Program-made: the position numbers and the translations under genes
DNA from: Alcanivorax sp. DP30
Lineage (GTDB): Bacteria; Pseudomonadota; Gammaproteobacteria; Pseudomonadales; Alcanivoracaceae
Direction of reading: 5' to 3'
DNA: 64,000 bases
NCBI RefSeq assembly: GCF_009882945.1
Contig: NZ_WTUY01000005.1
Coordinates: forward strand, 289,816 to 353,815
In this document: piece by piece, positions 36,727 through 39,411 of the stretch
Position numbering within the stretch: position 1 is the stretch's first letter
Layout of the letters: every line of letters begins with the position of its first letter
The notes under the pieces: generated by a model
Told to the model about the DNA's origin: nothing
Database searches by the model: none
What the model saw: the letters and a program-made list of their open reading frames with translations, nothing else

Positions 36727-36948
36727 ATAAGGAGTAGCCCGGCTTAACACCGCCGCGCTTTGCGGGCTGATGCTCCAGGGCCGGTGGTGCTAGGTGAGTG
36801 TCGGGTGGCGAAGGATTCAATAAACGGGGGCATGTCAGCACTGCCGGGTTCCGTCCTTTGAAACTCGAAACTCCCTCTCGCTATTTCCTACTCTGAAATC
36901 AGTGATTGTCCACTGTCTCCTCCGCCAGTCAGACCCTAAACTGTGGTC

Positions 36949-37887
36949 ATGCGACTGATACTGATATTGCTTGTCCTGCTTTTTGCTGTTCCGGTTCAGG
37001 CGGATTGCCGGAATCTGGAGGCTCCCCGTGGTGTGTCTGCACCGGCCGAGAATCAATTGACACTGGCCACACTGAATCTGTGGCGATTACGGGATGAGCG
37101 CAAGGATGCGGATTTTGATGATCCGCTTTCTCCCTCGCTGCTCTCCCAGCGCCTGGATGCCATTGCCAGAACGGTGGCGGATTCCCTGAACGCTCCGCAC
37201 CTGTTGGCCGTGCAGGAAGTGGAGAACCGTGCCCTGCTGGATTCGCTGGCGGCGCGTCTGGCTCGTCGGGGCTGGCAATATCGAACCGTGCTACTGGAAG
37301 GCAATGATCCCTCGGGAATGGATGTGGGGCTACTTTATCGTGCGCCGGTGGCACTGAATGGTGCGGATGCCCTGTTCGCCAGTGAACGCTTTCGTGGGCA
37401 CCACCTGTATTCGCGTCCGCCACTGAAAGTATCAATCCGCGAACCGTTTCGTGCTGATCTGGTGGTGGTACACCTGCGCAGCGCGCGGGATCTGAAATCT
37501 TCCCGGGTGTTCGAGAAGCGCAGGCGTCAGGCAGCGACACTGGCCGCATGGGCAGAAGAACAGGAGGCCCCGCTTATCATTGCCGGAGACTTCAACAGCA
37601 CCTGGGACGCAGGCCGTTTTTCCGATAGTTACCAGCATTTTTCCGCTTCGGGCTTGTTCAATGTATGGCAGAAGCTGGCGCCCAATGAACGATACAGCTA
37701 TCGCCACCGGTGCCGCCCCCAGGCGCTGGATCACATCTGGGTGTCTGCGACGGTGAAAAGCCGGGTTGAGGCCGTGGCTGTCACCCGTGGCAATGCCGGA
37801 CGCTACAACGCCCTGTATGGCTCAAACGGGGTGTCACCCATTTCCGATCACGAGGCACTGGTGGTGTATTTTTCAGAGGGAAATTAA
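36949..37887 (+). CDS. Secreted endonuclease/exonuclease/phosphatase family protein
   Basis: A 312-residue exported protein (signal peptide MRLILILLVLLFAVPVQA). The EEP fold is evident: TLATLNLWRL at the first strand, AVQEVENRALLD with the metal-binding Glu, VVVHLRSARD, IIAGDFNSTWD and the C-terminal SDHEALVVYF with the catalytic His. Such proteins cleave phosphodiesters of nucleic acids, inositol phosphates or lipids. An extracellular or periplasmic nuclease role is likely. GTG 36943 is an alternative start two codons earlier. Confidence 0.88.
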   Translation: MRLILILLVLLFAVPVQADCRNLEAPRGVSAPAENQLTLATLNLWRLRDERKDADFDDPLSPSLLSQRLDAIARTVADSLNAPHLLAVQEVENRALLDSLAARLARRGWQYRTVLLEGNDPSGMDVGLLYRAPVALNGADALFASERFRGHHLYSRPPLKVSIREPFRADLVVVHLRSARDLKSSRVFEKRRRQAATLAAWAEEQEAPLIIAGDFNSTWDAGRFSDSYQHFSASGLFNVWQKLAPNERYSYRHRCRPQALDHIWVSATVKSRVEAVAVTRGNAGRYNALYGSNGVSPISDHEALVVYFSEGN

Positions 37888-37930
37888 AAGCAAGGTTTTG
37901 CGTGTTGCGTGGGGGCTAGCGGATTGACTA

Positions 37931-37990
37931 AAAAGACGCCGCGGGGTTGCTTGCGTGTTTGCGAGGACCAGGGAGAGCCCCGCGGCGTTG
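37931..37990 (-). terminator. Rho-independent terminator of the TorF-type porin gene
   Basis: On the minus strand ACGCCGCGGGG pairs with CCCCGCGGCGT over 37936-37987 with a loop of about 30 bases, followed by TCTTTTTAG. It ends the leftward porin gene transcript. The long loop is unusual. Confidence 0.75.
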
Positions 37991-38027
37991 AAACGTTGGG
38001 CGGCCTAAGCCGCCCGTGTGTTCTGTC

Positions 38028-38732
38028 TTACAGGGCGAATTCGTAAGCAACGCTCAGTACGACATCGTCGTCCCAGGTGTCTACGCCTGCTACATCTTCC
38101 TGATCAACGATCTTGGAAGCAGTGAAGGTGAATTGATCAGTCACTGCATAGCTGACATCGACATGGGTGTAATCGGCGAGAGTGCCATCCACTTCCGGGT
38201 CACCGTCAAAGTCATAGTAACCGGCAGTGATGCCGTACTTGTCGTAGCCATAGCCCAAAGCGAAGTAATTGTCTTTGTTGTCAGTGGCGTCGTCACCGTG
38301 ATCCACTTCGCCAACACCGATAAACGCGTCAGCGCTGAAACCTGCGAAGCCCAGACCGAGGTGCACTTCTTCGAAGTCTGCACTGGACGCCGGTGAAGCA
38401 GCGGTAGTACCACCAGTGGTGTAGTTGTAGTCAATGTAGCTGATGTCGTAGCTCAGGCCTTCAATTTCACCACCGAAACCTGCGTACAGATCGTACTCGG
38501 TATCATCGGTTTCAGAAGACGCCCAGGCACCAGCATAGAGACCGGAAGCGTGGGAGTAGTCAACGCTACCGTAGACCGCAGCACCGTCGGTCAGCTGCTG
38601 GCCACGCCACAAGTACTGGCTGGACGCACCCAGTGTTCCGCTGACTTCAGCAGCAGCGATGGCAGGCGCCATGCTGGCAGCGACAACAGAAGCGGCCAAA
38701 ACGGTTTTCTTCAGGCTAAATACGTTTTTCAT
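38028..38732 (-). CDS. TorF family (TIGR02001) putative porin, sigma-54/NtrC-type promoter
   Basis: A 234-residue outer-membrane protein with a signal peptide (KTVLAASVVAASMAPAIAAA, cut near 28) and an alternating barrel pattern ending SVAYEFAL. The stretch GTLGASSQYLWRGQQLTDG is the family opening. Function is uncertain; homologues are often near glnK-amtB ammonium genes. The upstream region has a close sigma-54 promoter match and two NtrC-like sites, which fits a role in nitrogen limitation. A terminator follows. The ATG at 38732 is placed by GAGGG upstream; the frame to 38783 is not signal-like. Confidence 0.85.
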   Translation of the reverse strand: MKNVFSLKKTVLAASVVAASMAPAIAAAEVSGTLGASSQYLWRGQQLTDGAAVYGSVDYSHASGLYAGAWASSETDDTEYDLYAGFGGEIEGLSYDISYIDYNYTTGGTTAASPASSADFEEVHLGLGFAGFSADAFIGVGEVDHGDDATDNKDNYFALGYGYDKYGITAGYYDFDGDPEVDGTLADYTHVDVSYAVTDQFTFTASKIVDQEDVAGVDTWDDDVVLSVAYEFAL

Positions 38733-38809
38733 TTGCAACCCTCTTAACAAGTCTAATTCGTTCAGTGTGCGCTGGTGACGCACCGCCTTCTTCGGCTCGC
38801 ATGAGATAT

Positions 38810-38825
38810 TGCAGAGAGTGTGCCA
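38810..38825 (-). promoter_or_regulatory. Sigma-54 promoter (-24/-12) of TorF-type porin gene
   Basis: Read on the minus strand, TGGCACACTCTCTGCA matches the sigma-54 consensus TGGCAC-N5-TTGCW at 15 of 16 checkable positions, with exact GG/GC spacing. The implied transcription start is about 65 bases upstream of the porin ATG. Two NtrC-like sites lie about 110-130 bases upstream of that start, the normal enhancer distance. Confidence 0.75.
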
Positions 38826-38901
38826 ACTATTTTTTATCTAATTAAAACAGCGGCCTAGCTATCGAGGAAGGAGGAAAGAGTAGGTTAAGTGATGCCTGGG
38901 G

Positions 38902-38936
38902 TGCGCAAAAATGGTGCTGCGCACCGCATTGGTGCA
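38902..38936. promoter_or_regulatory. Two NtrC-like enhancer sites
   Basis: Site 1 at 38902-38918 (TGCGCAAAAATGGTGCT) matches the NtrC consensus TGCACY-N4-TGGTGCA at about 14 of 17 positions. Site 2 at 38920-38936 (GCACCGCATTGGTGCA core) carries the full GCACC-N5-GGTGC palindrome. They lie in tandem upstream of the sigma-54 promoter and just after the stop codon of the adjacent lipoprotein gene. Confidence 0.7.
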
Positions 38937-38940
38937 ACCG

Positions 38941-39411
38941 TTATGGGCACTGCCAGTCGATTTGCACAGCATCGACGTTCGCCCCCGAGGCGTCCTCCAG
39001 CGACAGCCCACACTGACCCTTGTCGTACACAAAGTGCGCGCGGTACTGGGCATCGGCCTGAGGCGAAAATTGCAGGGCAACACGGCAGCGGTCGCGACTG
39101 TTGTCCGCCTGGCGACGGTTGTAGATCACTCCGATGCGGCTTGCGTGGCTGGTAGAGAGGGTTGTCGTGACCTGTGGGCTTTTCTTCATGGTCTCCAGCA
39201 GCTCGTTCAGGGCGTCTCCGCTCATCGGATTCTGTGATATCGCATATTCGGTGGGCTTGAAGCCTTTGCCGGGCACGCAGACGACAGGCTGGGCGGCGGT
39301 GTTGTTACTGGTAAACGTGATCTGGGCGGTGTCGCCAGTGGCAGGCGCCTGGTAGTTGAGGTGCTGACAGCCGGCGAGTAGTGCCAGGGGAACGAAAATC
39401 AGGGCTTTCAT
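38941..39411 (-). CDS. Hypothetical lipoprotein
   Basis: A 156-residue protein with a lipobox LLAGC (lipid near C15). The mature part is mostly beta with four further cysteines (VVCVPG, RDRCRV, KGQCGL, WQCP) that could form two disulfides in the periplasm. I do not recognise the family. The 3' end lies next to NtrC-like sites for the porin gene downstream, so readthrough of its transcript into the porin gene is also possible. Confidence 0.65.
   Translation of the reverse strand: MKALIFVPLALLAGCQHLNYQAPATGDTAQITFTSNNTAAQPVVCVPGKGFKPTEYAISQNPMSGDALNELLETMKKSPQVTTTLSTSHASRIGVIYNRRQADNSRDRCRVALQFSPQADAQYRAHFVYDKGQCGLSLEDASGANVDAVQIDWQCP

Follow-up and report, generated by a model that had tools for sequence, protein, structure and literature searches.

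A putative sigma-54/NtrC enhancer promoter upstream of a TorF-family porin gene in Alcanivorax

The porin gene and the elements upstream of it

The window, by which we mean the whole 64,000-nucleotide stretch of Alcanivorax sp. DP30 DNA that was analysed, carries on its minus strand a porin gene preceded by a leader and a compact array of promoter-like elements, which lie in the following order going upstream from the coding region.

38028..38732, minus strand: TorF-family (TIGR02001 / Gcw_chp) outer-membrane porin gene, 234 aa, signal-peptide-like start
38739..38745, minus strand: ribosome-binding site AAGAGGG, invariant in 27 aligned leaders of two genera
38767..38783, minus strand: predicted leader stem-loop GTGCGT-CACCA-GCGCAC, close to the implied transcript 5′ end
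38810..38825, minus strand: sigma-54 -24/-12 element TGGCACACTCTCTGCA, one mismatch to the consensus TGGCACRNNNNTTGCW
38845..38857, minus strand: IHF-like element, offset -32 from the -24 box; TAGGCCGCTGTTT in the window, 3 mismatches to YAANNNNTTGATW
38902..38918, minus strand: weaker, promoter-proximal NtrC-like site AGCACCATTTTTGCGCA, 3 mismatches to TGCACCNNNNNGGTGCA
38920..38936, minus strand: strong NtrC-like site TGCACCAATGCGGTGCG, one mismatch to TGCACCNNNNNGGTGCA, holding GCACC-N5-GGTGC

The gene product scores 75.6 bits against the TIGR02001 profile ('TorF family putative porin'; curated cut-off 47.15) and also matches PF09694, which bears out the TorF-family assignment made in an earlier note on this DNA. 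The genome has one such match, and the porin of A. jadensis T9 is 93% identical to the window's. Residues Y40, R43, G44, W70, E79 and G85 are invariant in the alignment, and an AlphaFold2 model built with 63 family sequences returns a predicted 12-strand barrel (pLDDT 82.6, pTM 0.80), by which the protein is predicted to be an outer-membrane beta-barrel. A profile search for a relative of solved structure gave no close one, with weak matches to OmpG at E 0.0093 and worse, and Foldseek with the model returned, among its best 50 rows, generic barrels with query TM-scores of 0.27-0.60, topped by those of invasin and intimin. Fold homology to a channel of known substrate was rejected on these weak and generic matches. 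The protein is strongly acidic, with a net charge of about -35 once the first 22 residues are excluded, and the medians are -27 for family members linked to glnK and -24 for the others. As acidity is common to both groups it says nothing specific on ammonium, and we rejected it as a sign of ammonium specificity. The gene is convergent with one at 36943-37887 encoding an endonuclease/exonuclease/phosphatase-family protein (PF03372) with a signal-peptide-like start, a putative secreted nuclease that could likewise serve nutrient scavenging. Directly upstream of the enhancer lies a lipoprotein-like ORF of 156 aa (38941-39411, minus strand), which matched neither a Pfam nor an NCBIfam family at E 0.001.

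The earlier note had credited the -24/-12 element with 15 of 16 consensus positions; the element is real and correctly spaced, but that figure counts N positions, and of the specified positions 11 of 12 match. Its two NtrC-like sites, with the full GCACC-N5-GGTGC palindrome in 38920-38936, are likewise present, at 1 and 3 mismatches. Sigma-54 transcripts begin some 12 nt beyond the GC of the -12 box, a rule that gives an implied start at ~38799 and a leader of ~65 nt. The centres of the two NtrC-like sites then fall ~129 and ~111 bp upstream of the start, in agreement with the 100-140 bases proposed before. A pattern scan of 37880-39100 found no sigma-70-like promoter, and a sigma-70 promoter in this region was rejected. 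Within the leader, AGAGGG is found near the porin start in 42/44 family genomes, and the predicted stem-loop, which occurs in both genera aligned, may perhaps act as an mRNA stabiliser; region 38600-39000 gave no Rfam match at E up to 1.

Conservation and spacing of the elements within the family

Taken singly, each site is within chance expectation for 64 kb: sigma-54 matches at ≤2 mismatches number 24 in the window where shuffled sequence gives 29.6, and for NtrC matches at ≤3 mismatches the figures are 63 and 56. The porin-promoter sites exceed chance through their combination, which the earlier note had called hard to get by chance, and through their conservation across the family genomes. 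The family sample comprised 46 Alcanivoracaceae genomes, of which 44 (the window's and those of 43 relatives) have the porin; the two porin-less assemblies are 86% and 64% complete. With the consensus TGGCACRNNNNYTGCW, in which Y is allowed at the first T of TTGC, and with the best element in the searched upstream stretch scored, a -24/-12 element is kept in 44/44 porin-bearing genomes (32 without a mismatch, 9 with one and 3 with two), whereas shuffled sequences reached ≤2 mismatches in 261/4400 cases (236 at two, 25 at one and none at zero). The best pair of NtrC sites spaced by 18 bp totals ≤8 mismatches in 42/44 genomes, against 39/4400 shuffles, the two genomes without a convincing pair being G031 and G045. 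When the spacing was left free between 14 and 40 bp, 18 bp was the single best value in 36/44, tied in 4 and beaten in 4. Several relatives share with the window a weak second site. Conservation in orthologues, the check on which the earlier note had staked its reading, was thus found for the -24/-12 element in all 44 genomes and for the NtrC pair in 42. In 31 loci outside the family the best pair has 5 mismatches and all others at least 7, and the idea that the 18-bp pair is common to TorF promoters in general was rejected on this ground. In the whole Alcanivorax genome TGGCACRNNNNYTGCW occurs 13 times, against 3 for its reversed control, several of these exact matches sitting inside reading frames and not before genes, and GCACC-N5-GGTGC occurs in 15 places, against 6 for its control.

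Between the enhancer and the -24 box lies a further conserved element, which was found by looking for an IHF site. We take the IHF consensus to be WATCAANNNNTTR, of which YAANNNNTTGATW is the reverse. Anchored on the -24 box, YAANNNNTTGATW at offset -32 has a mean of 2.27 mismatches, against 6.1 over all offsets, and in 35 less redundant promoters this signal was reached at any offset in 0/2000 mononucleotide-shuffled sets. A match with ≤2 mismatches is present at -32 or -31 in 38/44 family genomes, while the window's own copy, with 3 mismatches, is degenerate. Among loci of other families that have a good -24/-12 element, the best such match lies at -30 to -33 with ≤2 mismatches in 13/24 glnK-linked loci and in 3/7 others, and is therefore not peculiar to linked copies. 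That the -32 element is a binding site for IHF is our guess from its sequence.

The distance from the start of the NtrC pair to the -24 box is 121 bp in 28 genomes, 120 in 3, 99 in 6, 132 in 3 and 111 in 2, the window's genome being one of the last two; its 111-bp distance coincides with a gap of 10 bp when it is aligned to four close relatives. The two genomes with poor pairs have distances of 92 and 168. Among the 42 genomes with good pairs the distances of 99, 111, 120/121 and 132 are close to whole helical turns, with steps of ~10-11 bp or double that. The phase coherence of 99, 111, 121 and 132 at 10.5 bp per turn was equalled in 0.9% of random sets (p ~0.009), and in 0.7% when the period was free to vary, under a null of random indels (three changes of 1-25 bp) that treats the values as three independent events and omits 120, 92 and 168. 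These figures are modest evidence that enhancer distances are coherent in helical phase.

Linkage of the porin family to glnK-amtB and the Ntr genes of Alcanivorax

Across the Pseudomonadales, TIGR02001 is matched in 68/116 genomes. A P-II gene lies within 3 kb of the porin on the same strand in at least 39 of these 68 (19/28 families), among the P-II matches listed, and for 24 of these 39 genomes 23-135 nt separate P-II from the end of the porin match. A tblastn search of 30 fetched order-level loci adds three P-II-linked genomes (L132, L135 and L143), so that P-II (glnK) is close downstream of the porin in at least 42/68. In 19/30 order-level loci both glnK and amtB lie downstream of the porin in the same orientation, with amtB first in L132. 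At class level (30 loci from 140 genomes) glnK and then amtB lie downstream on the same strand in 14/30; the exceptions include L184, where both genes are divergent, and L177, where amtB stands alone. Near the porins of five Alcanivoracaceae genomes, the window's included, there was no P-II gene among the matches listed.

The -24/-12 element is more frequent in glnK-linked porin copies than in others. The 60 loci were grouped as linked or other by tblastn and P-II distance, with L184 and L177 counted among the others. Three at contig ends (L146, L156 and L169) are unreadable upstream, leaving 57 outside the family, in which L158 and L159 are second porin copies located elsewhere in their genomes and not linked. 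A -24/-12 element at ≤1 mismatch precedes 24/31 glnK-linked loci and 7/26 other TorF loci (Fisher p 0.0002, with species that are not independent), such that 7/31 linked loci are without a good element and 7/26 others have one. The combination of such an element with an NtrC site of ≤2 mismatches is found in 18/31 linked loci and 2/26 others (p 7e-5, again with non-independent species).

The Alcanivorax genome encodes the corresponding regulators: an NtrC equivalog (C22; 745.8 bits, TIGR01818 cut-off 558.6), an adjoining NtrB equivalog (377.7 bits, cut-off 240) and RpoN. PF00158 has three strong and four weak matches in the genome. Two of the strong sigma-54 activators resemble NtrC without reaching the TIGR01818 cut-off of 558.6 (they score 386 and 322.9) and are, beside NtrC, candidates for the activator of the porin promoter. 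Similar elements lie before other genes of the same genome. Upstream of ntrB is a perfect NtrC site, TGCACCTTTATGGTGCA, together with a -24/-12 that at best has 2 mismatches. NtrC-like sites of 2 mismatches accompany two further sigma-54 elements: an exact one before a nasT-like ANTAR response regulator, whose next gene encodes an NMT1_2 protein, and one with a single mismatch before nirB. Exact -24/-12 elements with weak NtrC matches (3 and 4 mismatches) stand before the gene for a NarK-type transporter and before one for a circularly permuted ATP-grasp protein. The element of the ATP-grasp gene (PF14403; L009, G000:C20:676272) is just upstream of it. An exact -24/-12-like element, TGGCACAATTATTGCT, also lies ~60 nt upstream of the rpoN start (L129:7210-7225; G000:C21:443209-443224), hinting at sigma-54 autoregulation.

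The glnK-amtB pair of this genome is on another contig than the porin, and the genes share no operon. Upstream of glnK the same scan found several NtrC-like sites (L122:6440-6660) and no clean -24/-12; a glnK promoter sharing the architecture of the porin promoter was thus not found by that scan. Within L122:6440-6660, TGGCCTGATTCTTGTA may be a weak -24/-12 element of glnK. Most likely, the porin of the window is a member of the NtrC regulon that has been split from an ancestral porin-glnK-amtB operon.

A model for nitrogen-starvation control, its alternatives and known systems

We propose that the array upstream of the TorF-family porin gene is a sigma-54/NtrC enhancer promoter that places the gene in the nitrogen-starvation (Ntr) regulon, a reading of the sequence to which we give a probability of about 0.88. 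The elements and their conservation, the regulator genes and the linkage of the family to glnK-amtB were observed, and from them we infer NtrC binding, induction, a part for IHF and the substrate. The same reading had been put forward in the earlier note, and it is supported by conservation, by the encoded NtrB, NtrC and RpoN and by the family's position upstream of glnK(-amtB). Phosphorylation of NtrC by NtrB, the established response to a shortage of fixed nitrogen, is in the model the first step at the porin promoter as well. NtrC would then bind the tandem sites, spaced by 18 bp, ~110-130 bp upstream of the start, and bending of the DNA, perhaps by IHF at the -32 element, would bring it to RNA polymerase-sigma54 waiting at -24/-12. 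ATP-driven opening would yield a transcript with a ~65-nt leader bearing the 5′ stem-loop and the strong ribosome-binding site. The porin so produced would make the outer membrane more permeable to small nitrogenous solutes, for which ammonium and small cationic amines are the most plausible candidates, and inner-membrane Ntr transporters (AmtB and others) would take these up. As relatives of the gene often adjoin ammonium-uptake genes, the channel probably aids nitrogen uptake and so helps the cell to take in scarce nitrogen.

Two alternatives concern the promoter itself. The inverted repeats might serve to terminate transcription of the lipoprotein-type gene upstream (38941-39411, minus strand), and the -24/-12 match might be a product of chance. 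The strong NtrC site does begin 4 nt past the stop codon of that gene, and a pattern scan marks 38925-38913 as terminator-like (5 pairs and then ATTTTTGCGC), one of 2 such sites in 37880-39100 where 1.0 is expected in shuffles; however, conservation falls on the consensus for NtrC and on the spacing of 18 bp, not on a stem with T behind it, all 44 genomes keep the -24/-12 element, and the scan of 37880-39100 found no sigma-70-like promoter. We rejected the terminator or chance reading on conservation and consider it extremely improbable. The promoter could instead depend on sigma-54 and answer, through a different enhancer-binding protein, to some signal unrelated to nitrogen; of the three strong and four weak PF00158 matches, the candidates are the two strong ones that score below the NtrC cut-off. 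It also speaks for such an activator that of the 7 unlinked TorF loci with a good -24/-12 just 2 have an NtrC site at ≤2 mismatches. Yet the palindromes upstream of the porin agree with the consensus for NtrC as well as with the perfect site that precedes ntrB, the sites are conserved in pairs, and the gene to which the family is linked is glnK, and we regard control by another activator as unlikely.

A different alternative accepts the proposed regulation and makes the porin a general or non-nitrogen channel, serving for example osmotic or envelope adjustment in starvation. The acidity of the whole family and the generic barrels that alone came out of the structure and profile searches speak for this, against which stands the recurrent operon linkage to P-II and amtB; we consider it a serious possibility, if short of an even chance. 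At the other extreme, TorF-family porins at large may be the outer-membrane arm of ammonium and amine scavenging in bacteria, a strongly acidic 12-strand channel, ancestrally in a porin-glnK-amtB operon and switched by NtrC, through which ammonium or small cationic amines reach the periplasm for AmtB and its companions. In the Alcanivoracaceae the gene would then have become an independent unit, its NtrC-pair enhancer shifting by full turns of the helix and by no other steps, about an IHF-like bend that kept its place. We put this broader picture forward tentatively, as doubtful in its full extent.

Should NtrC control hold, a large porin family without known function is tied to nitrogen starvation by sites, spacing and operon linkage, and its role becomes testable by simple deletions. 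Growth of oil-degrading Alcanivorax in the sea is generally nitrogen-limited, and for these marine bacteria the porin is a likely outer-membrane component of the starvation response. Furthermore, an enhancer moved by whole helix turns offers a natural test of NtrC looping onto the sigma-54 polymerase.

The promoter type is classical and of an already known kind. Enterobacterial promoters of the glnAp2 type combine -24/-12 with two NtrC sites at about -110 to -140, and the window promoter shares both the element and the two sites at similar distance. The NtrC sites of glnAp2 are ~32 bp apart, whereas those of the window's family are 18 bp apart with a nearly invariant spacing. The family name TorF derives from the torF gene of the Shewanella TMAO system; the window porin is a member of that family by TIGR02001, but its control is probably of the nitrogen type.

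In the open-licence literature searched we found no paper on TIGR02001 in nitrogen regulation, and none on TIGR02001, gcw_chp, PF09694 or a TorF porin, the phrase 'TorF family putative porin' appearing, in the excerpts retrieved, only in a Methylophilus gold-nanoparticle study. Open-licence papers on NtrC or RpoN in Alcanivorax hold nothing on the porin gene and no expression data, among the matches listed, and excerpts of the Burkholderia, Paraburkholderia and Azoarcus literature do not describe a porin beside glnK. Two systems come closer. The amine porin BCAL3473 of Burkholderia cenocepacia is, according to excerpts of its description, an outer-membrane protein whose induction follows nitrogen depletion; its possible sigma-54 element has an extended spacer, and an sRNA represses it, while statements there on the effect of NtrC deletion disagree (PMC10117139). 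It and the predicted window porin are alike as outer-membrane porins with signs of nitrogen and sigma-54 control, and the extended spacer and the sRNA are features of BCAL3473. In Herbaspirillum seropedicae, as excerpts of the study report, the nlmA-glnK-amtB operon is NtrC-dependent and NlmA, of unknown function, is seen in membrane extracts under nitrogen limitation, its location being given by the authors as 'most probably in the periplasm' (PMC3023670). The gene order is like that of the TorF porin-glnK-amtB loci, a likeness by order, and nlmA adjoins glnK-amtB whereas the Alcanivorax porin gene does not. By analogy of order and control, as far as these excerpts go, the Herbaspirillum operon is a probable precedent for the porin of the window.
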